A DNA stretch of 56,180 bases from Spirirestis rafaelensis WJT71-NPBG6 (GTDB taxonomy: Bacteria > Cyanobacteriota > Cyanobacteriia > Cyanobacteriales > Nostocaceae), in NCBI GenBank assembly GCA_019359015.1, contig JAHHID010000046.1, positions 1 through 56,180 on the forward strand. Reading direction: 5' to 3'. This document shows, piece after piece, positions 41,377-56,180 of the stretch; position 1 is the stretch's first letter; each line of letters begins with the position of its first letter. Below the pieces are notes generated by a model. That model searched no databases. It was not told where the DNA came from and saw only the letters and a list, made by a program, of their open reading frames with translations. A program made the position numbers and the translations under genes.

Positions 41377-41381
41377 AATGT

Positions 41382-41423
41382 TGTACTTTAAATAATTATT
41401 GTCCAATTTAAATAATTGTTGTC
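41382..41423 (+). promoter_or_regulatory. Putative CAST left end with two TnsB-type sites
   Basis: The end starts TGTAC, as known V-K CAST ends do. Two direct 17-base sites, TTTAAATAATTATTGTC (41387) and TTTAAATAATTGTTGTC (41407), are 20 bases apart and differ at one base. They are the likely TnsB-binding repeats of the left end. Confidence 0.6.
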
Positions 41424-41564: not shown

Positions 41565-43485
41565 TTTTTTAGGTCAGCTTATGCCCCGAAAAGCAACGAG
41601 CAAAGCCTTTCCAGGGTTGGAAAGTGAGGAACTGGCGAAAAGCGAGGAAGAACAAACCAAGTACCTGCTGAAGAACGAAGATTCACCAGAATATCTCAAA
41701 AAGGTGGAATTGATAGATGCGATTCGTCAAGCACCTAACAAGGTGGCTCGTAGGAATGCGATCGCAGATGCAGCAAAAGCGCTTGGTAAAAGTACTCGAA
41801 CAATTAAGCGCATGGTAGAGAAGCTTGAACTCGTAGGGGTTGCTACTCTAGCTGTTGGACGTAAGGATAAGGGACAATATCGTATTTCCCAACAGTGGCA
41901 TGATTTTATTGTGAACTTTCATAAATGGGGTAACAGAGAAGGTTCTCGGATAAATCACAATCAGATTTTTGGGAATTTAAAAGCTTTAGCCTTCCAAGGA
42001 GAGAAACTGCAACAGAAGAAGTATGATGAACAATTTAAGGGATACTCTCAGGTGCGGGAGGATTTAATAGCAGGAAGGCATCCTTCTCATGTCACTGTTT
42101 ATAAGGTAATAAATTCCTATTTAGAAGAAAAAAATAGCAGAGTTCGCCATCCTGGTTCACCTATTGAAGGACAAATTATTCAAACAACGGAAGGTATTTT
42201 AGAAATCACCCACAGCAACCAAATTTGGCAGATAGACCATACTCGGTTAGATATTTTGTTGATTGACGAAGAAGATAAAAAAGTTATTGGTCGTCCATAC
42301 ATAACCTTGATAATGGATAGTTATTCTGGTTGTGTCACAGGTTTTTATCTAGGTTTTGAACCTGCTGGCTCACATGAAGTTGGTCTAGCTCTGCGCCATG
42401 CAATTTTACCAAAGCACTACGGAAGAGAGTACGAACTTCAAGAAACATAGCAGGTTTGTGGAATTCCAGAATATATAATGACAGACCGTGCAAAGGAATT
42501 TAAGTCCGAACATTTAAAACAGATTTCACTACAGTTAGGTTTTATACGACGTTTACGTGCTTTTCCCCAAGCAGGTGGTTTAATTGAATCTATATTCGAC
42601 AAGATTAATAAAGAAGTTTTGTCGTTATATGGAGGATATACTGGTTCAAGTGTTGAGGAACGTCCTCCAGAAGCAGAAAAGGCTGCCAATCTGACGCTTG
42701 ATAAACTAGAGAAAATATTAGTTAGATATTTTGTAGATCACTACAATCGTCATGATTATCCAAGGATAAGAAATCAAAAACGCATTGAGCGATGGAAATC
42801 AAGTTTTTTACTAGAAGAACCTGAAGTTCTCGATGAACGTGAACTAGATATTTGCTTAATGAAAGTTGCGTATCGTAATGTAGAAAAATATGGTTCTGTA
42901 AACTTTCTTGGTTGGGTATATCAAGGAGATTGCTTGTTAAATTCTGAAAAGAAGCAAGTTTCTTTAAGATATGACAAGCGCAATATTATAAGTGTTCTTG
43001 CTTATACTCGCCCTAGTAACGGTGAACCAGGAGAGTTTATTGGTGTCATACAAGCTAGAGATTGTGAACGAGAAAGGATCTCTCTGGCAGAATTGAATTA
43101 TATCAAGAAAAAATTGCGCGATGAAGGTAAAGAAGTTGATAACTCCTCTATCTTGAACGAGCGGTTGTCTATATTCGAGGATGTTGAAGCAAACCGTAAA
43201 GATAGACGCAGACAACGCCGTAAAAAAGCCCAACAAAAACATGAGGTTAAATCTAACAAATCACAATTAGTCGAGTTATTTCCCGAAAATGCAACATCGG
43301 AGGAAATAATAACATCGCCAGAAAATTTAATATCTACCTTTTACACAGATTCACAAAACGTTGTAGATTCGACAAATAAGCAAATTAAGCAGAGTAAACC
43401 TGATACCAATCAAACAGCCAAAGCTAGACGACGCCCTAGAGTAGCTGTGAAAGATTGGAACCAATTCATGAAGGATAATTGGTGA
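41554..43485 (+). pseudogene. tnsB: tnsB transposase interrupted by an amber codon
   Basis: DDE/Mu-type transposase that cuts and joins the transposon ends. The N-terminal helix-turn-helix region is at about residues 60-105 (AAKALGKSTRTIKRMVEKLE). The catalytic residues are Asp228 (IWQIDHTRLDILL), Asp311 (YIMTDRAKEF) and Glu345 (GGLIESIFDKIN); the 34-residue D-E spacing equals that of ShCAST TnsB. A TAG at 42448-42450 stands where relatives have tryptophan (EWGTYG region), so one TGG-to-TAG change splits the gene into 298 and 335 codons. The C-terminal tail (ending WNQFMKDNW) is intact. Starts at 41554 or, with a better ribosome binding site, 41581. Confidence 0.85.
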
Positions 43486-43490
43486 GTGCA

Positions 43491-44411
43491 ATGTCACAGA
43501 CAAACTTAGCCCATGCTAATCTAGAATTTCAGAAGCCGTTTGATGGAAGTTTGCAACCTGCTGAGGAATCAAGGCGATCGCCTGAAGTTCAGGCTGAGGT
43601 AGAGCGGATTGGTAAAGCTAACACTTACTTTCCCCTAGAGCGCGATACGGAATTATTTGACTGGTTTGATGACCAGCGTGATGCAAAGCTGTGTGGCTAT
43701 GTTACATCTGCTACGGGTTCTGGCTTATTAAAAGCTTGTCAACTGTACAGAACACAGTACGTAAAGCGGAGAGGAACGTTATTGGAAGTTCCGGCGACTG
43801 TTATCTACGCCGAAATAGAGCAGCATGGTGGCCCAACCGATTTGTACTGCTCTATTTTGGAAGAAATTGGTCATCCACTTGCTCATGTTGGAACACTGCG
43901 AGATTTGCGATCGCGCGCATGGGGTAATCTCAAAGCATACGGTGTAAAATTTCTCGTTATCGGTAATGCAGATTACTTAACGTTAGAAGCATTTAACGAA
44001 CTGATTGATGTTTTCACAAAACTAAGAATCCCCGTTATCTTGGTTGGAACTTACTATTTAAATGAGAATATTCTGGAACGGAAAAGTTTGCCATACGTGC
44101 GCGTTCATGACTCATTTTTAGAGTCATACGAGTTTCCTAATTTAACTGAAGAAGAGATAATTGAGGTTGTGGACGATTGGGAAGCAAAATTTCTGCCAGC
44201 AAATGGTCGCTTAAACCTCACACAAATCGAGAGTGTGATTTCTTATTTGCGACTAAAATCTGGAGGACTGATTGAGCCTTTGTATGATTTGCTTCGCAAA
44301 ATAGCAATCCTGAAACTAGATGAGCCAAATTTTGAACTCAATCAAGCTAATTTGACTAGAAAATTCGGTAGACGCAAGGAACCAAAAGTTAAATTCAAAA
44401 GGAAAGGCTGA
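43491..44411 (+). CDS. tnsC: TnsC-like AAA+ regulator lacking Walker A and B residues
   Basis: 306 residues from the ATG at 43491 (a GTG at 43482 overlaps the tnsB stop). The fold follows V-K TnsC: LERDTELFDWFDDQRDAK, VIYAEIEQHGGPTDLYCSIL, IPVILVGTYYLNENIL. But the P-loop reads TSATGSGLLKA (about 72-82), with no GKT/GKS, and Walker B reads LVIGNADYL (155-163), where LIIDEAD is expected. The frame is otherwise intact and full length. It may be an ATPase-dead clade or a decaying copy. TnsC normally polymerises on target DNA and recruits TnsB. Confidence 0.75.
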   Translation: MSQTNLAHANLEFQKPFDGSLQPAEESRRSPEVQAEVERIGKANTYFPLERDTELFDWFDDQRDAKLCGYVTSATGSGLLKACQLYRTQYVKRRGTLLEVPATVIYAEIEQHGGPTDLYCSILEEIGHPLAHVGTLRDLRSRAWGNLKAYGVKFLVIGNADYLTLEAFNELIDVFTKLRIPVILVGTYYLNENILERKSLPYVRVHDSFLESYEFPNLTEEEIIEVVDDWEAKFLPANGRLNLTQIESVISYLRLKSGGLIEPLYDLLRKIAILKLDEPNFELNQANLTRKFGRRKEPKVKFKRKG

Positions 44412-44462: not shown

Positions 44463-44843
44463 ATGGAACCAGAAGCTGTTCAACATCCACCTTGGTATGT
44501 CGAACCCAACGAAGGGGAAAGTATCAGTCACTATTTTGGTCGATTTAGGCGTCGCGAAGCAGTTAGCGTGTCTTCACCTGGGAGTTTAAGTAAAGCCGCA
44601 GGAATTGGTCCAGTATTAGCAAGGTGGGAGAAATTTCGGTTTAATCCGTTTCCCAGTCAAAAGGAATTAGAGGCGATCGCAAAACTAATAGGCTTGGACG
44701 CAGACCGAATTGCTCAAATGCTCCCTCACTTGGGTGAAAAAATCAAAATGGAGCCAATACGCTTGTGTGCTGCGTGTTACGTAGAGCAACCATATCATCG
44801 AATGGAATGGCAGTTTCAATCAACGGTGGGGTGCGATGTCTGA
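44463..44843 (+). pseudogene. tniQ: tniQ, truncated within its zinc finger
   Basis: 126 codons of a V-K-type TniQ (about 165 residues in ShCAST). Conserved parts are PNEGESISHYFGRFRRREAV, GPVLARWEKFRFNPFPSQKE, LEAIAKLIGLDADRIAQMLP and the first zinc knuckle LCAACYVEQPYHRMEWQFQS. After GCD the homology stops, and the remaining cysteine pairs are missing. The frame ends two codons later, where IS630 sequence on the other strand begins. TniQ links TnsC to the Cas effector, so loss of its tail should disable guided transposition. Confidence 0.8.
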
Positions 44844-45538
44844 ATTACCTGCGTTATATGCTTTAAGGAGTAACTTTCCTTCGATATAATCAACCGCCCC
44901 ATAGTATGTCTGCTTGTCTCTTTCATTAATAACTGAAACGGTTACTTCTTGGTCAGTTTTGCCCCAGACATACCCGCTTAAATCTCCCCATAGCAAATGG
45001 CATTCATCAAGCAGTAATACTCTCAAAAATCCTGTTTCGATTTCCTCTCGGTGCAATGCCCCCGCAATGTTTCAATCTCTTTTTTTTTTGCAGCAACAGC
45101 CTCTGGATCAGCCTTTGGATTCAAAGAAGTGGTTTTCTTCCAACTAATTCCCGCCGCGTCAAATAAATCGTAATAGCTCCGTTTTGATTCGTAGGTAACA
45201 TCATATTCAAATGCCAATTTGTACTCCAGTTCACCAAGCTCCCAAGTATCTTTCGTTTGCAACCAACTTAATACTTCTTTTCGCTGTTCATCGCTCAGGT
45301 AACTCTTTCTTCCTTTATGATTTAAGCGCAGTCCATCTATTCCAAGTTGCTCGTAATCTTGTTTCCAGCCTGTTATCGAACCCAGTGACACATCTAAAAT
45401 CGTCTGAATCTCTTCGTATAAGTAGCCTTGATAAACCAGCTTGACTGCCAACGCTTTCCTTACCTCACGGGCTTCTGGACGAAGAGCGATAAATTCTTGC
45501 AGTTCTGCGATCGCATCCTGTAGATCCTGGTTTATCAT
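44836..45538 (-). pseudogene. IS630-family transposase, frameshifted and 3'-truncated
   Basis: The N-terminal 150 codons (start 45538) hold the helix-turn-helix segment YQGYLYEEIQTILDVSLGSI and WLQTKDTWELGELEYKLA. The DDE part continues in another frame as LHREEIETGFLRVLLLDECH, LLWGDLSGYVWGKT, VINERDKQTYYGAVDYIEGK. The shift lies near the G5 run at 45058-45068. It is not a slip on the A10 run at about 45080, since that frame meets a stop first. The gene is cut at AYNAGNSD, exactly at the tniQ junction. Confidence 0.8.
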
Positions 45539-46825: not shown

Positions 46826-47530
46826 TTAGTAGCTTCCAAGAGGGGAGCGGTTCAACTCATCCTTATAAAATTTCCAATTCGGCAGAAACTTATTCATCAA
46901 AGCTACAAAGCGATCGCCATGATGACGTTCTAAAAGATGCACCATTTCGTGAACTACAACGTACTCTAGGCAAAGCTTGTCTTTTTTCGCTAGTTCCAGG
47001 TTGAGCCAGATGCGTTTGGCTTGGATGTTGCAAGTACCCCATTTGGTTTTCATCAGTTTTACCCCCCAGTCCTCAACCTGGACTCCCATGTTCTTTTGCC
47101 ACTTTTCGATTAATGGGGGAATTTCCTGTTTTAACTGCTGTCGATACCAGGACATCATGACTTGTTTGCGTTGCGCTTCATGACTTCCTGGTTTCACATA
47201 AAGGTCGATATAAGTATTATTTCTAACTTCTACTTTGGGATTACCCTGATAATAGATGACATTTAGTAAATAGCGTTTGCCTTGAAAGTAATGACTTTCA
47301 CCAGACACAAATTCTCTTTTTGACTGGCGTTCTTGTGTTTCAAAGTTAGCTTGATGCTTTTTAATCCAGGCTAGTTTGGAGATGGCGAATAAACGCACAG
47401 CTTCGTCATCCAAGTGTAAGGGTGTGGCGATACGTACTCGACCATCAGGGGGATAAACTGCCAAGTGCAAGTTTTTAATATCTTTTCTGGCAACGTCTAT
47501 GACAAGTTCACCGACTGTTATTTGATGCAT
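46826..47530 (-). CDS. YgjP-like (DUF45, M48-type) metallopeptidase
   Basis: A 234-residue zinc peptidase with HEMVH (194-198) and the downstream HHGDRF, the WLG/SprT-like layout. The N-terminal region VARKDIKNLHLAVYPPDGRV is family-typical, as is WGTCNIQAKRIWLNLEL. It lies one base downstream of hsdR. YgjP-like peptidases often follow type I restriction genes, so a role in controlling or processing HsdR is plausible but unproved. Confidence 0.85.
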   Translation of the reverse strand: MHQITVGELVIDVARKDIKNLHLAVYPPDGRVRIATPLHLDDEAVRLFAISKLAWIKKHQANFETQERQSKREFVSGESHYFQGKRYLLNVIYYQGNPKVEVRNNTYIDLYVKPGSHEAQRKQVMMSWYRQQLKQEIPPLIEKWQKNMGVQVEDWGVKLMKTKWGTCNIQAKRIWLNLELAKKDKLCLEYVVVHEMVHLLERHHGDRFVALMNKFLPNWKFYKDELNRSPLGSY

Positions 47531-47531
47531 C

Positions 47532-50500
47532 CTAATACTCGCTTTGGCTCTTGACTATTTCAAAAATGCGCTCTAAATCTTCAGGGGAAGTTAGATATTG
47601 TTTAATGGCATTTTTTACTTCGCGCTTTTTGATTTTGTTTCCTCGCCAACCATCTTTTTTGGTTTGGCGAATTGTATCATCTATCGCTAGAGATAACGCT
47701 TCGTTTTGATTGAGGTTGTCGTATAACGCCCTTTTAGCAGCAGAGTTCAATGATTGAGGATACTGTGATGAGCTACTCGGTTGAGCAACTTGTTTACTTA
47801 ACTCAACAATTTTCTGCAAATAGGCTTTATAGTCTTGGGCTTTTGCTTTTCGGACTTGGATTAACTCATCGAGCAGCGTGGACATATTTTCAAAATATTT
47901 GGGATTGGTTGGCTGCTGATCGATAATGAGTTTGCGTAAGTTGTTTTCGATTGTTTCCGCTACAGCTGTTGGGTTTTGCTTGATGCTTTTGGGTAATGCG
48001 TCAACTGCATTTGCACCGCGTTCGACAATCAACTGAATCAGTGTCATGTCGTCAAAGGCTGAAATTAGTTCGCTTTCTTCTGCACCGATATAGCTATCAA
48101 TCAAGTGACGCATGGCGGGTTCATAGGTTTTCAAGTCGATATAATCGCCACTGCGTAGTTTCACCTCAGCGCGTACCTGTTCGTAATGCTTAACTTCTTG
48201 TTTAATAATTTCGATTTCTGCTGGAGTGTATCCGGCTTCGACCATGTCATTTGCTAAGTTGGCGTAGGCTCGAACCAAAGGGGCTGTATACTTATAAAGG
48301 GCAAGGCGTTTTTGCTGGTTGTCTTGAAGCTTGTCCGGCTCGTCGTTCGCACCACCGAAATAGCGTCCATAGGCATCGGTGTCTTTGGGTGGCTCTACTG
48401 GTTCACACAGAGCTTTGATGCTTTCTCTGGCAATTTCCAGACGCTCCCTACCCTTGGTTAACCTGTCGCTTAATAACCCATCAACATCGTCTGTATCATA
48501 ATCTTCAAAGGCTTCAGAAGTATAATCGTTAACTGATTTTTCTAAGCTTTTAAATAGGTCTTTGTAGTCGATAATGTAACCATATTCTTTATCTTCCCCA
48601 TCTAACCGATTGACGCGACAAACAGCTTGAAATAGACTGTGGTCACGCATGGATTTATCAATGTAAAGATAGGTGGTAGGGGGAGTATCGAAGCCTGTTA
48701 ACAGTTTATCTACTACAATCAGCAGCTTCATTTGGGCGGGTGATTCGACAAATTTATTTTTGACTTCTTTCTCGAATTTCTCTGGCGTTTTGCCATTGAG
48801 CATTTTTTGATAAATTTCGTACTGCTTTAGTTTTTCGGTGGGTTCATCTTCTCCGGTGCTTTCACCTTTAATACTCTGGAGAGAGCCGTCATAGGAAGTA
48901 ACAATGGCACATTTTGTAAAGCCAGCATTTTGGAATAACTCGTAATATTTGCAGGCTTCATAAATACTGCTACTGACGAGCATGGCATTGCCCCGACCGT
49001 TTTGCAGGCGGTCTTTGGTGTTAAAATCTAAGATGATATCAGCAACAATTTTTTCTAATCGTGATTTTGAACTGAGGACTTTTTGCATCGTACCCCAGCG
49101 TCTTTTGAGTTCGGTTTTGGCATATTCGGTTAAGTTTCTAGTTTTAGCTTCAAACCACTGATCAATTTTTGTTTGTGAAGTAATATTTTGGTCAACATTG
49201 CGGGCTTCGTAGCGCAAATCTAAGACAACTTGATCGCTGACAGCTTCATCAAATTTGTAGGTGTGAATGTAATCACCAAAAATTTCGATGGTTGTTTCTC
49301 TGTCTTTTTTGAGTAGGGGTGTACCAGTAAAACCGATTAACAAAGCATTGGGCAAAATTTGCTTCATGGCTTTGTGCAATTTCCCGGACTGGGTGCGGTG
49401 ACACTCATCCACAAAGACATACATATCGCCCTTGGCTTGAAAATTTTGGGGTAAACTGCGCTTGAGTTCGGCAATGTAGTTGTCGTAGTCTGCTTTATTT
49501 TTTTTACCGTCCTTTCTGCCAAATTTATGGATTAAGGAGCAGAGCAACCAACGAGTAGTATTATTCAGTTGGGTAATTAACTCTTGACCGCTTTTGGTGC
49601 GATAGATGTTTTCATTGACCCCTAGAAAGACGTTTTTAATTTGCTCGTCGAGTTCATCACGGTCAGTAATAATTAACACACGAGCATTAGGGTTATATTC
49701 CCGAATCCATTTGGTGAGCCAAACCATCGTCAGGCTTTTACCACTGCCTTGGGTATGCCATATGATACCTCCTTCCCTGCGATAGAGGTAAACTTGGGCA
49801 GCCTTAACTCCAAAATACTGGTTATGACGGCAGAGTTTTTTGATACCACTGTCAAAAACGAGAAAGTTGTGGATTAGTTCTAGAAATCGTTCTTTTTCAC
49901 AGAGTTGCAGCAGATGTCTGTCTAAGGGATTTTCTATATCGCTGGCTTCTTTCCAGGTTAGGTAATATTTTTCTGAGGTTTCAATGGTGCCATAACGGAG
50001 TCCTTCGGTGTCGTTACCTGCCATGACAAACTGCATGGTCGTAAAGAAGGGCTTAATAAAAACAGATTTTTGATTATCGAGGTTTTGGCGGATGCCTTCA
50101 GATACGGAAACGGTACTGCGTTTAAGTTCGAGAACACCGATCGCAATACCATTAACATAAAGTACGATATCTGGGCGTTTGGTGTTTTCGCCTTTGACAG
50201 TGACTTCTTCGGCGATCGCAAAATCATTTTCTAGAGGTTGTTCCCAGTTGATCAGCCAAACGGTTTGGGTGTTTTCGCCAACTTCTTCTTTGACTTTGAC
50301 CCCATAGCGCAGGAGGCTATAAACTTCTTTGTTGATGTCATAAAGGCTTTTGCTTTGGTCGCCTGCGACTTTCTTGAGTTCATACAAGGCTTTAGTGATG
50401 AGGCTGTTGCTGTAGCCTTGTTTATCGCGTAGGAAGGTACTGAGGATTTCCGTTTCGATGTTGCTGTTGTTAGGTCGGTCTTGCCAATTACCCAGATAGC

Positions 50501-50576
50501 GATAGTGTAATTGTTGCTCGAATAATTGCACAATGCGGTTTTGGGTTAGGCGTTCGCGTTGTCCGACCTTGCTCAT
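47532..50576 (-). CDS. hsdR: Type I restriction enzyme R subunit
   Basis: A 1014-residue DNA translocase and nuclease. The N-terminal PD-(D/E)XK nuclease is NTKRPDIVLYVNGIAIGVLE followed by LKRS. The SF2 motor has motif I WHTQGSGKSLTMVWL, motif II VDECHRTQSG, motif III FTGTPLL, and motif VI around QAVCRVNRLDG. The C-terminal helical domain binds the methylase. It is intact and of normal length. It needs HsdM and HsdS, both encoded upstream on the same strand, separated by a PIN-domain remnant. Confidence 0.94.
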   Translation of the reverse strand: MSKVGQRERLTQNRIVQLFEQQLHYRYLGNWQDRPNNSNIETEILSTFLRDKQGYSNSLITKALYELKKVAGDQSKSLYDINKEVYSLLRYGVKVKEEVGENTQTVWLINWEQPLENDFAIAEEVTVKGENTKRPDIVLYVNGIAIGVLELKRSTVSVSEGIRQNLDNQKSVFIKPFFTTMQFVMAGNDTEGLRYGTIETSEKYYLTWKEASDIENPLDRHLLQLCEKERFLELIHNFLVFDSGIKKLCRHNQYFGVKAAQVYLYRREGGIIWHTQGSGKSLTMVWLTKWIREYNPNARVLIITDRDELDEQIKNVFLGVNENIYRTKSGQELITQLNNTTRWLLCSLIHKFGRKDGKKNKADYDNYIAELKRSLPQNFQAKGDMYVFVDECHRTQSGKLHKAMKQILPNALLIGFTGTPLLKKDRETTIEIFGDYIHTYKFDEAVSDQVVLDLRYEARNVDQNITSQTKIDQWFEAKTRNLTEYAKTELKRRWGTMQKVLSSKSRLEKIVADIILDFNTKDRLQNGRGNAMLVSSSIYEACKYYELFQNAGFTKCAIVTSYDGSLQSIKGESTGEDEPTEKLKQYEIYQKMLNGKTPEKFEKEVKNKFVESPAQMKLLIVVDKLLTGFDTPPTTYLYIDKSMRDHSLFQAVCRVNRLDGEDKEYGYIIDYKDLFKSLEKSVNDYTSEAFEDYDTDDVDGLLSDRLTKGRERLEIARESIKALCEPVEPPKDTDAYGRYFGGANDEPDKLQDNQQKRLALYKYTAPLVRAYANLANDMVEAGYTPAEIEIIKQEVKHYEQVRAEVKLRSGDYIDLKTYEPAMRHLIDSYIGAEESELISAFDDMTLIQLIVERGANAVDALPKSIKQNPTAVAETIENNLRKLIIDQQPTNPKYFENMSTLLDELIQVRKAKAQDYKAYLQKIVELSKQVAQPSSSSQYPQSLNSAAKRALYDNLNQNEALSLAIDDTIRQTKKDGWRGNKIKKREVKNAIKQYLTSPEDLERIFEIVKSQSEY

Positions 50577-50640
50577 AGCAACTATCTCACTGTGATAATC
50601 ACGGTTTTACTCAGCTTTAAATATGACACTGTTTATCAAA

Positions 50641-50853
50641 CTATGTCATCTCTATTTGTGTCATCTGTGAATTTTCTGTGTAGCTTAATGTTTGTAGCCA
50701 GGAAACACCCGTGAGATTGGTATCGACTGTAGCTAATGTTAATTGGTGGTAAACTGCTGTAGCTGCAATAAAGCGATCGCCTGGGTCTTGGTGTGGTAAA
50801 TTAATCTGACGGCTTAAAATAGCGATGTGGCGGTTGAAAACCTTGGCGTTGAT
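50641..50853 (-). pseudogene. VapC-like PIN-domain toxin, C-terminal remnant
   Basis: The open frame directly after the hsdS stop reads NAKVFNRHIAILSRQINLPH and then QDPGDRFIAATAVYHQLTLA, TVDTNLTGV. This is the C-terminal half of a PIN nuclease with its conserved DPxDRFIAATA motif. The N-terminal catalytic half and a start codon are missing. It ends in TAG at 50641, between hsdS and hsdR. Confidence 0.7.
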
Positions 50854-51917
50854 TAATAACTGCTAATTAGCCTTGTCTTCCCGGTTAATAATTCTTGCAT
50901 CATGCCTTGTTTGATGGCTTTGTATTTGTCGCGCTTTTGTTCTAAGCCTGCAATTTCTGCATCCATATCGCTAAGGATTTGAGCGATCGCTTTTTGTTCT
51001 TCAACACAAGGCAAGTTAATTTCAATATTTTCAATCGTTTTAGCGTTTAAGCTGGGAACTCCAGAAGCCTCATTATAGGAATACCAATCAATCAAATTAA
51101 ATCGATAAAAAATAAATTTTGGAAATGCATTAGTTAATATCTCTGTATAAAACAAAGTGTCTATCGTCCAAAATGGAATATCCATATATTGTGGAATATC
51201 AATAGTTCCCTTCCGTCCGATTAGTACTGATGGTTTGTCGTATAAATATGTTTTTGCTCTACCAATTTCTCCTCCTGTAGCTAAAATTGGAAATTCGCCA
51301 TTTTTGTTTACCACATCATGCTGACTTTTTCCATGTCGGACTTTTAATGCTTCCCCCAACTTCTTCAGCTCCCACTCACCGCTAAAACCCGGCAGGCGTT
51401 TTTTGCCCGTGAGAAGTTGCTGCATCGTGCCTTGCTTGGTGTTGCGCTTTTTGGTGATGAGGCGATCGCACTCTGTAATCAGGGCATCGACATCGCTGAG
51501 GGTTTGGGCGATCGCTTTTTGTTCAGGAAGAGGAGGGACTTTAACTGGTATTGGATAAATAAAATTTCGGTTGAGTGAAGGTTGAGCGCCCCCTGAGTTA
51601 TATCGTTGAAAATCAATTGATTTCAGGAAATAGTAGGCGAATAGTTCATCATTAGCATGAAAATCAATAACGTATAGAGCAGTATTTAATGCCCAAAAAT
51701 CAACACGAGAGTAGCTAACTACTCCAAATGAAGCACCACTTCTACCTACAGTTACTCCCGGACCGTTTGTTGTGGCTGTGTCATGATAACCAGTGATTCC
51801 GAAGGAACCAAGCACGGGTATATTTCCTGGTTTTCGCTGAGGCTCAGGTAAATCATGTCCTCTTCGCAAGGTTACAAACTCCCCAAGCTTCGTGTGCTGC
51901 CATCCGTCAGATACCAT
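50853..51917 (-). CDS. hsdS: Type I restriction enzyme S (specificity) subunit
   Basis: 354 residues with two target-recognition domains, each closed by a conserved helix: PLPEQKAIAQTLSDVDALIT (about 135-154) and CVEEQKAIAQILSDMDAEIA (about 310-329). It sets the sequence recognised by the complex. The TRD signatures WALNTALYVI and WTIDTLFYTE are visible. Length is on the short side but complete. It lies downstream of hsdM with an hsdM-tail remnant and a small gene between. Confidence 0.92.
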   Translation of the reverse strand: MVSDGWQHTKLGEFVTLRRGHDLPEPQRKPGNIPVLGSFGITGYHDTATTNGPGVTVGRSGASFGVVSYSRVDFWALNTALYVIDFHANDELFAYYFLKSIDFQRYNSGGAQPSLNRNFIYPIPVKVPPLPEQKAIAQTLSDVDALITECDRLITKKRNTKQGTMQQLLTGKKRLPGFSGEWELKKLGEALKVRHGKSQHDVVNKNGEFPILATGGEIGRAKTYLYDKPSVLIGRKGTIDIPQYMDIPFWTIDTLFYTEILTNAFPKFIFYRFNLIDWYSYNEASGVPSLNAKTIENIEINLPCVEEQKAIAQILSDMDAEIAGLEQKRDKYKAIKQGMMQELLTGKTRLISSY

Positions 51918-51960
51918 AACGCAATCCTCGCAAGCTATTCCAAATCACCTTTTTCAACCG

Positions 51961-52096
51961 TTAACATTCATATCCAAATCCCATCCGCTTCAAATGCCCC
52001 TCAACCTTAGCCGTCAACTCCTCAACCTCACTCGTCAACTGCGGTCAAGGCATATCATACCGTTCCGCTAACTCCTTTATTCGCTGCGTCAATCGT
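51961..52096 (-). pseudogene. Duplicated fragment of an hsdM 3' end
   Basis: Read on the minus strand this matches the last 45 codons of the hsdM gene at 52306 (TQRIKELAERYD, EVEELTAKVEGHL), with an in-frame TGA and a different ending (MGFGYEC instead of MGLLW). It is a second, diverged hsdM tail, so hsdM or hsdS has been replaced or shuffled by recombination. Confidence 0.75.
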
Positions 52097-52105
52097 TCAA
52101 AAATT

Positions 52106-52306
52106 TTAATTAACTTTTCTATTTCTAATACGCTTAAGGTCTTCCCAAAACTCTTCTCTTGTTACTTTATCTAAAGTTTCCTTTCTTTCTTGTGTATAGT
52201 CACCGCTTCCCCATCCAGCTTGTTGTAAAAAGCGAATAGCATCTACTTGACCCAAATGTTCTACTAAAACCTCATAACCTTTTTTTCTCAATTCAATTTT
52301 ATCCAT
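52106..52306 (-). CDS. Small protein coupled to hsdM, not recognised
   Basis: 66 residues from an ATG that overlaps the hsdM stop (TGATG), so it is translationally coupled. Sequence (IELRKKGYEVLVEHLGQVDA, IRFLQQAGWGSGDYTQER) resembles small cyanobacterial antitoxin-like proteins often encoded beside PIN toxins. A PIN remnant does lie nearby at 50641. Function is not established. Confidence 0.6.
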   Translation of the reverse strand: MDKIELRKKGYEVLVEHLGQVDAIRFLQQAGWGSGDYTQERKETLDKVTREEFWEDLKRIRNRKVN

Positions 52307-54711
52307 CACCACAACAACCCCATCCTCTGCAAATGCCCCTCAACCTTAGCCGTTAACTCTTCAACCTTAGTCGTCAGCTGCGGCAAAGGCGTATCATACC
52401 GTTCAGCCAACTCCTTAATCCGCTGCGTCAACCGTTGCGAAATCCGATCCATCTCCGAAGCGATCGCCTGTCGCAATGTCGGCATCCACTTGTCATCTAC
52501 CACCAGCGTTTTTATCTCATCCTCTGTTAAATCCCCGTATTTTGTTAAAACATAATTATCCAAAAATTGAGTCAATACTTTAATTTGTTTACTAATTTCC
52601 GCCTCTTGCTCAATCAGCTTTAAATAAGCCTTTAACACCTTTAACTCATCCGCAAATGTTGCATCATTCTTAATCGTCTTGATGCGATCATTTACATTTG
52701 TTTTGGTAATTTTGCCGCTGTCGTTGGTGACTTCTTCCAGCAAACCCTCCTCACCGCCATGTTCTTCTTGCAGTTCCTCCTGCTGGCGGACAATTTCATC
52801 TTTTTTCGTTTCCAGTTCTGCGATCGCCGCCTGTTCAGCTTTAAAATAGCGGTTAATCATCAACTCCTTGGGAATGAGTTCGCAGACATAATCCGTAGCT
52901 ACGCCTTTTTTGTTCGTTACCGCCGTCAGTTCTGCCTTCCAGCCATCCTCTACCAAAATATAAACATCGTCCTTCATGCTCTCCACCCAATAGGTCATCA
53001 GGTGCTGGTAAACATCGTATTTATCAATGAGCTTTTTACCTGCAAACGCTTGCAATAGGTTTTCCGAGAGCATGTGAATAATGGCATTGGGCTTATCTCC
53101 CGGCTGGATGCCTTTCAGCAAAGGTGTGTGTTGCGCTTGCCAAGTCTCAAAAACCGCTTGAATGTCTTCCCCATAGCTGATAAATTCAGGATGGGCAAAA
53201 ATACAAGCTTTAACCTCCGACCCTGAGATTTTCAGCATCAGGTATCCTGGGCGATCTGCTAGCTGAAATAACTCTTGTTGCAGCGTCGGGTAAACTTGCC
53301 AGTAATCGCTCAAAGCCTCAATATCTCGCTTAGGTATCCCCCCCAACAAATGCGCCTCAATATCCTGAATATCCTCCTCCTCCTGACTGTCGATATAGCG
53401 CGGGATATTCAGATTGTACTCATTCCCCTCAATTTCCTTAACTGGCACCATCCGAGAATATTTCGGCACTTCAAGCTGCTTGTTAAAAACATCCACAATT
53501 TTATGAATGTCCTGATCCCGCAGGCGGTTTTTATTGCCGTCTTTAACAAACCCCTTGCTGGCATCAATCATAAAAATGCCTTGGCGATTCTCGGCATTTT
53601 CTTTGTCTAAAACAATGATGCAAGCCGGAATCCCCGTTCCAAAAAACAGGTTTGGCGGTAGCCCAATAACCCCCTTAATTATTCCCTTGCTAATCAGATT
53701 TTTCCGAATTTCTGCTTCTGCATTCCCCCGAAACAGCACTCCATGCGGCAGAATAATCGCCCCTTTGCCGTTGCTTTTCAGCGAGCGAACCATGTGCAGC
53801 AAAAAGGCATAGTCCCCATTTTTAGCCGGAGGGATGCCATAACCATCAAACCGTTGAAACTCATCCTTGGCTGGATTAAGTCCGTTGCTCCAAGCCTTGG
53901 AGGAAAACGGAGGATTCGCAACAGCAAAATCGAATATTTTCAGGCTCCCATCCGAATTTCTGAAATGGGGACTTGATAGAGTATTGTCCTGCCAAATCTC
54001 GGCGGTATCGTGTCCGTGCAGGATCATGTTCATCCGAGCCAAAGCGCGGGTGGCGTTGTCCATCTCCTGACCGTAGATTGTTAAGCCCCGTTCTGCTTCA
54101 TCCGCAGCTTTTAACAACAGAGAACCACTGCCACAGGTCGGGTCGTAAATGGTCTGATCCTGACTTTGAGCTAAATTAACGCTAATAACTTTGGAGATGA
54201 CACGGGAAACTTCAGCCGGAGTATAAAACTGCCCTTTGCTTTTGCCCGATTGCGTCGCAAAATTACGCATCAGATACTCATAGGCATCACCCAAAATATC
54301 ATCGCCATCAGCGCGGTTCTTACTGAAATTCAGTGCCCGGTTCTCAAAAATCGCCACCAAGTTGGAAAGCCGATCCTGCATTTCCTTGCCTCTGCCCAAC
54401 TTGTCGGCATCATTGAAATCAGCTACATCAATGACACCCTTTAAATCATTTGCCTCGGCTAGCGTGGTGATAATTTTGTTGATGCCATCCCCTATATCTT
54501 TCTGTCCTTTCAGGGCAACAATGTCCTGGAAGCCTCCACCTTCAGGTACTTCAATCAGCGCACCTGCGACACCCGCATATTTATCAGATACATATTTAAC
54601 AAACAATAAAACTAGTACATAATCCTTATACTGCGAGGCATCCATGCCACCTCGCAGTTCATCACAGCTTTTCCATAACGAACTATAAAGTTCACTTTTC
54701 TTAATTGCCAT
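52306..54711 (-). CDS. hsdM: Type I restriction-modification M (DNA methyltransferase) subunit
   Basis: 801 residues. The N-terminal helical HsdM domain is LRGGMDASQYKDYVLVLLFV. The N6-adenine methylase core has motif I DPTCGSGSLLLKA, motif IV FAVANPPFSS and GDYAFLLHMVRSL. It is longer than the usual 500 residues. The extra C-terminal 300 residues are mostly coiled coil (KVEELTAKVEGHL) and occur in a subgroup of HsdM. It transfers methyl groups from SAM to protect host DNA. Upstream-most gene of the restriction cluster. Confidence 0.93.
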   Translation of the reverse strand: MAIKKSELYSSLWKSCDELRGGMDASQYKDYVLVLLFVKYVSDKYAGVAGALIEVPEGGGFQDIVALKGQKDIGDGINKIITTLAEANDLKGVIDVADFNDADKLGRGKEMQDRLSNLVAIFENRALNFSKNRADGDDILGDAYEYLMRNFATQSGKSKGQFYTPAEVSRVISKVISVNLAQSQDQTIYDPTCGSGSLLLKAADEAERGLTIYGQEMDNATRALARMNMILHGHDTAEIWQDNTLSSPHFRNSDGSLKIFDFAVANPPFSSKAWSNGLNPAKDEFQRFDGYGIPPAKNGDYAFLLHMVRSLKSNGKGAIILPHGVLFRGNAEAEIRKNLISKGIIKGVIGLPPNLFFGTGIPACIIVLDKENAENRQGIFMIDASKGFVKDGNKNRLRDQDIHKIVDVFNKQLEVPKYSRMVPVKEIEGNEYNLNIPRYIDSQEEEDIQDIEAHLLGGIPKRDIEALSDYWQVYPTLQQELFQLADRPGYLMLKISGSEVKACIFAHPEFISYGEDIQAVFETWQAQHTPLLKGIQPGDKPNAIIHMLSENLLQAFAGKKLIDKYDVYQHLMTYWVESMKDDVYILVEDGWKAELTAVTNKKGVATDYVCELIPKELMINRYFKAEQAAIAELETKKDEIVRQQEELQEEHGGEEGLLEEVTNDSGKITKTNVNDRIKTIKNDATFADELKVLKAYLKLIEQEAEISKQIKVLTQFLDNYVLTKYGDLTEDEIKTLVVDDKWMPTLRQAIASEMDRISQRLTQRIKELAERYDTPLPQLTTKVEELTAKVEGHLQRMGLLW

Positions 54712-54910
54712 TTCGTGTCGCCTTCACGTATACCCCCCTTGATCAACTTTGTCAGATGTTCTCAAGTCCGTCTGACACTTTGCCTTGAAGTTTGTACATC
54801 TTGCAAAGAACCAATAACATACCACGCACAAGGACTTTGCTCATGTAGTGGCTGAGGATATATCGTATACCAGGAATTCGCAAATTGTCCTCATCTGCGA
54901 CAGCTAGATA

Positions 54911-55078
54911 TTATTGCGGCGGATTTTGCTGCTTCTCTCGCTCCTCAACTGCCTTACTCACAATCTGCACAACAAGATTACTGATGGGACGGTCTTCTTC
55001 CTCAGCCCATCTCACCAAAGCCTCGTGGATATCCTTGGGGAAATATATGGAAGTTTGTACGCGATCGCTCTGACTCAT
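54911..55078 (-). CDS. Ribbon-helix-helix (CopG/Arc-type) regulator
   Basis: 55 residues from the ATG at 55078: a beta strand VQTSIYFPKDIHEALVRWAE and then EEDRPISNLVVQIVSKAVEE, a canonical RHH DNA-binding fold. A frame extension to 55132 is possible. Some V-K CASTs encode Arc-type repressors near the effector and array in place of the MerR-type CvkR, so this may be the element's own regulator. An R-M controller or orphan antitoxin is the alternative. Confidence 0.75.
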   Translation of the reverse strand: MSQSDRVQTSIYFPKDIHEALVRWAEEEDRPISNLVVQIVSKAVEEREKQQNPPQ

Positions 55079-55205
55079 CAACACTACAAAGATTTGTTGC
55101 CAGTTCATCATACTCCCGTAACCTTGGAACAAGGCTCAATAATGTTTAACAATGTGTGGCAATGTTTTTGTGGTAGATTGAAAACATTATTGAACAAATG
55201 CGGCA

Positions 55206-55451
55206 ATGCCGAGGTTTTTGGATGGCGATCGGCTCAAGTGGCGATCGTTATTTGACGAAGACGAAATTAATAGAGGTGTTGTGATTGGGCGTTTTTATGC
55301 CTACACTCGCCATCGTGCTTCCTGGGGTTGGAAGTATTTGAGTTTACTGGATAGCAAATCCTACAGCATCGAATTTTGTGCTGCTGATACTGTTTGGGAA
55401 GAAGATTTGGAAGCAATAACAAACGAGGAAGGTTGCGATTACTCCTCGTAG
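55206..55451 (+). CDS. Small hypothetical protein beside the CRISPR array
   Basis: 81 residues, tryptophan- and aromatic-rich (RLKWRSLFDEDEINRGVVIG, RFYAYTRHRASWGWKYLSLL). The pattern looks like a real small beta-rich protein, not a shadow. It does not match Cas12k, TniQ or a known regulator as far as I can tell. It is divergent from the RHH gene across 127 bases and lies 197 bases before the array. Function unknown. Confidence 0.6.
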   Translation: MPRFLDGDRLKWRSLFDEDEINRGVVIGRFYAYTRHRASWGWKYLSLLDSKSYSIEFCAADTVWEEDLEAITNEEGCDYSS

Positions 55452-55648
55452 ACTGGACAACGAGAACTGGAATGAATCAAAAGGTTTGCTAACTGCAAAC
55501 TGGAAATGTTACTGCGTGCATTTGAGGAGATTTTGCCACTATGAGTCGCAATAGTAAGAAGGATTCCACGAGTCCCATCCTAAGAACTATACGATGCCAT
55601 CTAAATGCTAGCGAAGATGTACTTAGTGCAGCGGTTAACGTTTTTTCA

Positions 55649-55831
55649 GTTTCCAAAGCCCTCCCGTTAGGTGGTGGGTTGAAAGATTGAGCGTGAGGAT
55701 GGATCTACGTTTGAGGTGAGTGTTTCCAAAGCCCTCCCGTTAGGTGGTGGGTTGAAAGTTGGAAACTAGCTCAATCCGCTGTTAGCCGCACCATGTTTCC
55801 AAAGCCCTCCCGTTAGGTGGTGGGTTGAAAG
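55649..55831 (+). CRISPR. Three-repeat CRISPR array with V-K-type repeat
   Basis: Three identical 37-base repeats at 55649-55685, 55722-55758 and 55795-55831 are separated by two 36-base spacers. A third 36-base spacer may occupy 55832-55867. The repeat starts GTTTCCAAAGCCCTCCC and ends GGTGGGTTGAAAG, the same frame and length as the ShCAST repeat (GTTTCAACAACCATCCC...GGTGGGTTGAAAG). No cas1, cas2 or effector gene is in the window. Orientation is set by the 3' GAAAG. Confidence 0.9.
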
Positions 55832-55867
55832 TTATTATCATTGAAGACGGCACTTTGGCTATATAAT

Positions 55868-55907
55868 TTTGTATTAGGGTGGTTTGAAAGGAGCGCTGCA
55901 ATGGCAC
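55868..55907 (+). ncRNA. Putative delocalised homing crRNA: degenerate repeat plus tRNA-Ala-matching spacer
   Basis: After a 36-base gap from the last full repeat comes a degenerate half repeat, ending TATTAGGGTGGTTTGAAAG at 55890. The following 17 bases, GAGCGCTGCAATGGCAC (55891-55907), read as the D-stem 3' side through the anticodon loop of tRNA-Ala(GGC). In such a tRNA gene the preceding bases are GGTA, which gives a GTN PAM. This matches the known design of V-K homing crRNAs that direct insertion just downstream of tRNA genes. Confidence 0.65.
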
Positions 55908-56053
55908 GTAAAACGCAGCTATTTTTTGTAATGGAGCCTCTACTTCGGTGAAAACAGCAAAACAAGAGGTAGTAGATTTTTGTAATTAGACTGCAAATAA
56001 AGCGCTTTCAAGCTAGTCTTGTAATTCAAGAGCCTAGCGAAGTGCTGTAATAT
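55908..56053. other. Region where the CAST right end would be expected; none found
   Basis: AT-rich, with three TTGTAAT motifs (about 55927, 55980 and 56020). None of the TTTAAA/TGWC sites of the left end and no GTACA terminus are present. The right end is either deleted or displaced by the adjoining insertion sequence. Confidence 0.4.
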
Positions 56054-56179
56054 ATTGACATCCTCCCCACCCTATAGAGGGATGGGGATTCCAAAGAATC
56101 ACTTCTTGGATTTCCTGGTTTTTCCCTTTTGGGATTTCGGCACTTGCCTAGCCATTTTTGACCCCGGTAGTACGCCTGC
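56054..56179 (-). mobile_element. 3' end of an IS200/IS605-type element (right copy)
   Basis: Reverse complement of positions 1-126, identical over 126 bases, with the same hairpin. Sequence diverges immediately inside both copies, which marks the element end. Confidence 0.7.
56099..56179 (-). CDS. Partial TnpB-like transposase, C-terminal tail
   Basis: The same 26-codon basic tail as at 1-81, on the minus strand, running off the end of the window. Confidence 0.5.
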   Translation of the reverse strand, partial: AGVLPGSKMARQVPKSQKGKTRKSKK

Positions 56180-56180
56180 A

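Follow-up and report, generated by a model that had tools for sequence, protein, structure and literature searches.

Saito et al. reportedly described delocalised V-K guides for homing in 2021, and a bioRxiv preprint of the same year by Hsieh and Peters is said, going by its title, to deal with Tn7-CRISPR-Cas12k truncated repeat-spacer units that target tRNA attachment sites. The layout of type V-K CASTs, in which a truncated repeat (R*) is followed by an anchor spacer, has been published (PMC9938897, Nat Commun 2023), and the part of that paper on these units gives 46-82 nt as the distance from the PAM to the left end. When its guide is truncated, Cas12k directs insertion to positions next to tRNA genes (PMC9938897; PMC11406308, in their parts on homing). 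According to the section on att sites in PMC11406308, those of V-K CASTs are mostly tRNA genes and the att crRNA is truncated and set apart; that section adds that att sites differ even among close V-K CASTs and change oftener than those of other CASTs, in both cases for reasons that it gives as unknown.

Here we describe a unit of this kind near the end of the window, by which we mean the whole stretch of 56,180 nt that was analysed. Guides of this kind are already published, and the interesting part is the re-aiming. We put a probability of about 0.85 on the reading that the unit holds the att-site guide of a V-K CAST, that this guide was re-aimed from tRNA-Ala(CGC) to tRNA-Ala(GGC), and that the element then decayed and left the guide an orphan.

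A truncated repeat-spacer unit beside a short CRISPR array

The anchor spacer, GAGCGCTGCAATGGCAC, stands directly 3′ of ...GGGTGGTTTGAAAG, a short way downstream of a CRISPR array whose repeats (starting at 55649, 55722 and 55795) are identical in all three copies (Table 1). Because the half repeat before the guide agrees with the 3′ end of the array repeat at 12/13 bases and with the full 37-nt repeat at only 19/37, the initial annotation was right to call it degenerate. Its main call, a delocalised truncated repeat-spacer unit of a V-K CAST, is borne out by R* and by the published layout. The V-K anchor-spacer feature, a truncated repeat and short spacer set apart from the array, is thus present in the window, and by its layout 55878-55907 belongs to a type V-K CAST, as its R* together with the 17-nt anchor spacer.

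A site scan of 55600-56060 found neither a promoter-like site on the + strand nor a terminator-like site, and the R*-guide unit had no special fold (z-scores of 0.58, -0.54 and 0.32 for the three units folded). With the scan empty and the folds unremarkable, the idea that the guide has its own promoter and terminator was dropped. A TATAAT-like stretch upstream of the guide is conserved within one flank family, and GCTGC...GCAGC lies 3′ of the guide, with T-rich DNA. Neither ARAGORN nor Rfam found a tRNA gene inside the 56,180-nt window.

Table 1. Features of the CAST-derived element in the window
Feature	Position	Strand	Evidence
Right end (RE) of CAST, TGTACTTTAAATAATTATTGTCC...	41382-41423		41381-41423 (reverse strand) 81% to G002 left end
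AATGT beside RE, candidate 5-bp target duplication	41377-41381		Present at uninterrupted G002 site; other copy past contig end
tnsB with in-frame TAG at 42448-42450	41581-43485	+	81% over 635 aligned residues to L123 and L120 tnsB
tnsC, open throughout	43479-44411	+	84-85% to L123 and L120 tnsC; TniB, AAA_22
tniQ, truncated	44463-44843	+	125/170 residues to G002 tniQ at 86%; TniQ Pfam 27.1 against 27-bit cut-off
Helix-turn-helix ORF just past tniQ break	45023-45538	-	HTH_33, HTH_23, other HTH families
Cargo: YgjP-like peptidase, HsdR, HsdS, HsdM (type I restriction system)	46826-54711	-	Pfam
Ribbon-helix-helix regulator 5′ of cas12k, reverse orientation	54911-55132	-	RHH_5, 40.6 bits
cas12k remnant, first 28 codons	55541-55624	+	89% over 28 residues to L124 Cas12k, E 3.6e-9
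CRISPR array: three 37-nt repeats, two 36-nt spacers	55649-55831	+	
R*, truncated repeat	55878-55890	+	12/13 bases = 3′ end of array repeat
Anchor spacer (delocalised guide), 17 nt	55891-55907	+	16/17 bases of tRNA-Ala(GGC)
Left end, inner part, cut by IS	55908-56054	+	55649-56056 aligns to G002 element at 82%
Insertion sequence (IS) end, IS605-like by eye, cut by contig end	56055-56180	+	

The surrounding element has decayed

Counted from the right end, the genes run tnsB, tnsC, tniQ, as in a type V-K CAST, and the RE has the same layout as that of a related element in genome G039. The tnsB gene consists of two ORFs in one frame, with Mu-transpos_C, and both L123 and L120 have W at the position of its stop. 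The Walker A motif of TnsC, ATGSGLLKA, was considered as further damage and rejected, because relatives with full Cas12k have the same motif and an odd TnsC Walker A is noted for V-K in a passage of PMC11406308. By eye, the helix-turn-helix ORF is probably a transposase fragment. The cargo is common to the element of G002, a genome of the same genus, in pieces of 86-94% identity.

The relative that the cas12k remnant resembles, L124, has a Cas12k scoring 800 bits against NF038191, and the host assembly gave 0 NF038191 matches, in a search in which 2/14 control genomes gave a signal below the cut-off. Of the tracrRNA region, taken as the first ~650 nt after cas12k in four relatives, nothing matched in 54901-56180 except the array and guide parts. 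Having lost cas12k and the tracrRNA region, and with a broken tnsB and tniQ, the element would now be unable to use the guide alone; by its gene content it is a decayed descendant of a type V-K CAST and not a working member. Set side by side, window 55541-55648 and L119 14349-14548 belong to same-genus elements that have kept array and guide and whose cas12k/tracrRNA losses have different breaks.

Homologous guides stand beside tRNA-Ala genes

An R*-guide pattern made from the window's guide, with ≤3 mismatches allowed, matched 25 places in 24/217 family genomes (own included; control 0), and guides for other tRNAs thus lie outside this sample. For the tRNA search 25 guide loci were taken, namely 24 from the family search, with the window left out, and L159. 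ARAGORN found a tRNA-Ala in 24/25 of them, on the opposite strand and just past the left end, in agreement with the earlier statement, also published, that V-K CASTs home to tRNA genes with such guides. Guide and gene corresponded throughout: GGC-type guides stood by tRNA-Ala(GGC) in 7/7 loci and CGC-type guides by tRNA-Ala(CGC) in 17/17. L091 (G036:C1:4006434) has a CGC-type guide and no tRNA in its 3-kb locus.

In one set, 34 records came to 26 distinct ones. For the target comparison, contexts with an equal guide and equal first 60 downstream bases were counted once, which left 26 distinct contexts. A GTA-preceded 17-mer lies ≤900 nt from the guide in 23 of these 26, differing from it at 0 bases in 11, at 1 in 11 and at 2 in 1. 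The three contexts in which an adjacent matching target is missing are the window, L091 and L156, the last being a chance-like match in Mucilaginibacter; in the window, the view of a protospacer beside the left end stops inside the IS at the contig end. Among the 23 contexts with an adjacent target, the left end begins 54 nt past the PAM in 15, at 62 in one and at 142 in one, and the left-end motif went unrecognised in 6. A CAST 60-66 bp downstream of the protospacer, as the initial annotation had it, is therefore not the usual geometry of the relatives. Several tRNA-Ala(GGC) genes of other relatives run directly into left-end-like TGTACATTAAA..., and the G039 element is flanked on both sides by TATGG, a 5-bp target duplication.

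In L106 the guide at 1516 (-) reads GAGCGCTGTAATCGCAC, which is two bases off the adjacent tRNA-Ala(CGC) and has A at base 10, as GGC guides do. This guide is possibly an intermediate or a product of decay.

The tRNA-Ala(GGC) match in related genomes and in the host assembly

The window's spacer had been read as tRNA-Ala(GGC). With one mismatch to the search pattern, GTAGAGCGCTGCAATGGCAT was found in 21/149 related genomes (own included), and the backward control pattern had 0 matches in the 149; ARAGORN called tRNA-Ala(GGC) at all 20 loci listed of the 21 GTAGAGCGCTGCAATGGCAT genomes. Of the other four genomes of the genus three carry GTAGAGCGCTGCAATGGCAT (G001, G002 and G004), and G003, which is 54% complete, is without it. 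The GTA PAM and guide bases 1-16 agree contiguously with the tRNA-Ala(GGC) of the three, but at base 17 the guide has C and the gene T. The reading thus stands for 16 contiguous bases and fails at the last (16/17). GTA was also correctly taken as a GTN PAM: in the relatives' tRNA-Ala(GGC) it precedes the protospacer, and it does not precede the spacer in the array, as expected of a PAM.

In the host assembly (7.07 Mb in 143 contigs, with the window as the entire contig C46) the 17-mer with ≤3 mismatches had 18 matches, one of them exact, the guide itself, and 17 with 3 mismatches, among them the tRNA-Ala(CGC) on C78; the backward control had 5. No tRNA-Ala(GGC) was present among 57 host tRNA matches, in which Ala was represented by TGC twice and CGC once. 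That search scored 150 of 464 first-look candidates, and the 17-mer pattern search is independent of it. The initial annotation had named, as what would refute it, the lack of at least 14 contiguous matching bases in any host tRNA, and on this assembly its reading fails by that measure: the longest word common to the guide and 45 host tRNA loci, flanks included, has 9 bases. The smallest contig has 10,149 bp. This suggests that shorter ones were omitted; tRNA-Ala(GGC) may sit on one of them, and we infer that the host gene lies in an assembly gap.

Three further host loci bear on tRNA genes. The tRNA-Ala(CGC) at C78 23661-23735 (loci L057, L116) is followed 11 bases on by TGTACATTAACAAATTATTTGTC..., which is left-end-like and of another V-K type, and the 19.8 kb beyond it on C78 gave no match to Cas12k. 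At C54:12700-15800 more than 12 tRNA genes of many kinds are clustered, with no Ala among those called; this cluster resembles the cryptic tRNA array (L-array) that a passage of PMC9938897 mentions. Finally, at C64:18440-18486 (L165, L181), 25 bases away from tRNA-Gly(CCC), there is a short CAST left-end match that may be one end of another element.

The insertion site and the contig end

Host sequence to the left of the RE continues in G002, 94% identical over 612 bases, to the same point, where G002 is uninterrupted and runs on as GACAATGTTTGCATG... with AATGT. The 3.6 kb G002 locus at this site contains no tRNA. As the site in G002 is uninterrupted and without a tRNA, the window's RE stands at a plain intergenic site, on the side of an FKBP gene; the G002-type right flank of this FKBP-side site reads TTGCATGTCTATCC....

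In G004 the left-flank match stops 5 bases before the right end. A tRNA-Pro(CGG) in that genome was considered as a target and set aside, being ~200 bases off, against the published 46-82 nt, and unmatched by the guide. The array spacers were also rejected as guides to the right-end site, since their longest shared words with two sister flanks have 5-7 bases; for the anchor guide the longest words are 5-8. With the remaining fetched loci, neither full array spacer has a word of 16 bases in common.

The window stops 273 nt past the guide, within a repeated IS end: C46 and C114 begin, and C22 finishes, with 125-126 bases that are 100% identical to it. A search with the outer left end of G002 gave 3 host matches at E up to 0.1. 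One was the window's right end itself and the other two were short, one next to tRNA-Gly(CCC) on C64 and one near tRNA-Ala(CGC) on C78, and no convincing outer left end was found elsewhere in the host assembly. The flank upstream of the G002 tRNA-Ala(GGC) was not found in the host, with 40 of 388 and 40 of 143 candidates scored, and a piece from ~1 kb downstream of that gene was found in host C56. A search of 39/143 contigs (C104-C143 without C130; 35 whole, C104-C107 to 20,000 bases) and one C22 end for the G002 right flank, the tRNA upstream flank and the outer left end found none of them; it found only the IS end, in C114 and C22.

Probable retargeting between isoacceptor genes

We compared the flanks of the guides in a tree of 25 contexts (L159 left out), made from the 60 bases before and 133 bases after the guide with the guide itself removed. 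The window falls within a starred clade of 12 rows (96/93), in which the other 11 rows all have CGC-type guides. Its nearest flank row is G002, at 94% identity, and the two form a pair of lower support (87/69). A single clade of the 8 GGC guides is rejected (p-AU 8e-55), and the long branches L097 and L111 were flagged in the tree. Between the guides of the window and G002 there are just two differences, at bases 10 and 13, and in each the window has the base of the GGC gene; base 17 of the window guide is C, as in CGC guides. By chance, two-substitution outcomes that hit two of the three GGC-specific bases amount to 3/1224 (0.0025), a figure that is post hoc because the finding was chosen for reading as GGC.

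These relationships suggest that the window guide was probably re-aimed between isoacceptor genes by point mutation. As few guide positions distinguish the two tRNA-Ala isoacceptor genes, a pair of substitutions would be enough to re-aim a guide, and the window guide looks caught between targets, with the GGC gene at bases 1-16 and the CGC gene at base 17. L100 has a CGC guide amid GGC-type flanks, in a position without starred support, and may weakly point to the reverse change, from GGC to CGC.

We propose the following course of events. In intact relatives, Cas12k-tracrRNA with a short guide would bind a tRNA-Ala gene behind a GTA PAM, as published for the family, and the element would insert with its left end immediately behind the tRNA, ~54 nt on from the PAM, which is the geometry seen in relatives. 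In the window lineage the guide would descend from a tRNA-Ala(CGC) guide, and the substitutions G10A and C13G would have re-aimed it to tRNA-Ala(GGC), with base 17 staying C; both steps are read from the tree and outgroups. Later decay would have deleted cas12k and the tracrRNA region, placed a stop in tnsB, cut tniQ and brought an IS into the left end, making the guide the orphan that it now appears to be. We further infer that the guide worked on tRNA-Ala(GGC) before this decay. Against this stand the host assembly, in which no tRNA-Ala(GGC) was found, the RE at a G002 site without tRNA-Ala, the three contexts that have no adjacent target, the lower support of the window-G002 pair, and a unit without a + strand promoter-like site or special fold; in addition, two neutral changes in 17 nt of a dead element would be unsurprising beside 6% flank divergence.

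Weighing the alternatives

Neutral change is the core of an alternative that we consider improbable, though worth serious thought: the guide would be what is left of a tRNA-Ala(CGC) guide after neutral mutation in an already dead element, its GGC match a coincidence that directed no insertion. An element broken in four ways, a right end that is not at tRNA-Ala(GGC) and a guide base 17 that is still CGC-like would all suit such a relic. Coincidence would then have to account for two substitutions that both fell at GGC-differing positions and both took the GGC base (0.0025), leaving bases 1-16 in faultless agreement with GGC, and GGC and CGC guides mix in another flank family too (L100, weakly supported). 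That a random 17-mer merely happens to follow a random half repeat has a negligible chance of being true. The missing host target is the one thing in its favour, whereas 16/17 bases match together with a PAM (control 0/149 genomes), and homologous units beside a matching tRNA-Ala in 24/25 loci already refute it.

It is conceivable, if doubtful, that the element sits at a tRNA-Ala(GGC) gene just beyond the contig end, on the far side of the IS, a subsequent rearrangement having brought its RE up against the FKBP-side flank. The contig ends 273 nt past the guide and in G002 tRNA-Ala(CGC) starts 351 nt past its guide, neither tRNA-Ala(GGC) nor the outer left end was found in the assembly, and AATGT beside the RE is one base off NATGG, as found next to the left end at tRNA-Ala. 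The G002 FKBP-side site, however, is uninterrupted with AATGT, which fits direct insertion there, and FKBP is near 0/20 of the relatives' tRNA-Ala(GGC) loci and absent from the longer stretches of three genus genomes. A quite unlikely alternative is a non-autonomous, Cas12k-less CAST, with its guide kept for use in trans by another CAST in the cell. Cas12k is present in 4/8 stretches of guide-bearing relatives (L117, L120, L123 and L124), and none was found in the fetched stretches of L118, L119, L122 and L125, which are possibly incomplete; the guides of these four agree with the tRNA beside them to within one base. The G002 element, too, has lost cas12k and tracrRNA, at break points that differ from those of the window. 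Nevertheless, the host assembly yielded no Cas12k, tnsB and tniQ of the window copy are broken as well, and each relative's element was fetched in part only.

We thus favour a guide re-aimed from CGC to GGC before the element decayed. If retargeting of this kind is true, simple mutation is enough to move a homing site from one tRNA gene to its sister. A wider proposal, that V-K CASTs change att sites through point mutation of the anchor guide in both directions and that guides may outlive cas12k and tracrRNA because another CAST can use them in trans, is speculative and in our estimate rather unlikely.

Comparison with described V-K CASTs

In the literature on tRNA-Ala guides, lost cas12k and retargeting we found no isoacceptor switching; Saito 2021 and Hsieh and Peters 2021 were outside that search, and such switching may be in print. 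In kind and target, the window's unit matches what the title of Hsieh and Peters 2021 names.

As far as the units are described in the relevant parts of PMC9938897, they and that of the window are alike in a ~12-nt truncated repeat with a 17-nt spacer downstream of the array near the left end, and in a protospacer that lies in a tRNA gene behind GTN. The likeness extends to 37-nt repeats conserved at their 3′ end and to a small DNA-binding regulator beside the start of cas12k, the window's ribbon-helix-helix regulator being placed like the Arc-type CAST regulators of that paper. Unlike the CASTs presented there, the window lacks cas12k, its tracrRNA region and the outer part of the left end, and the host assembly shows no target for the guide. 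The section on att sites in PMC11406308 gives no route by which the target of a guide changes, and in the window two isoacceptor substitutions would provide such a route.
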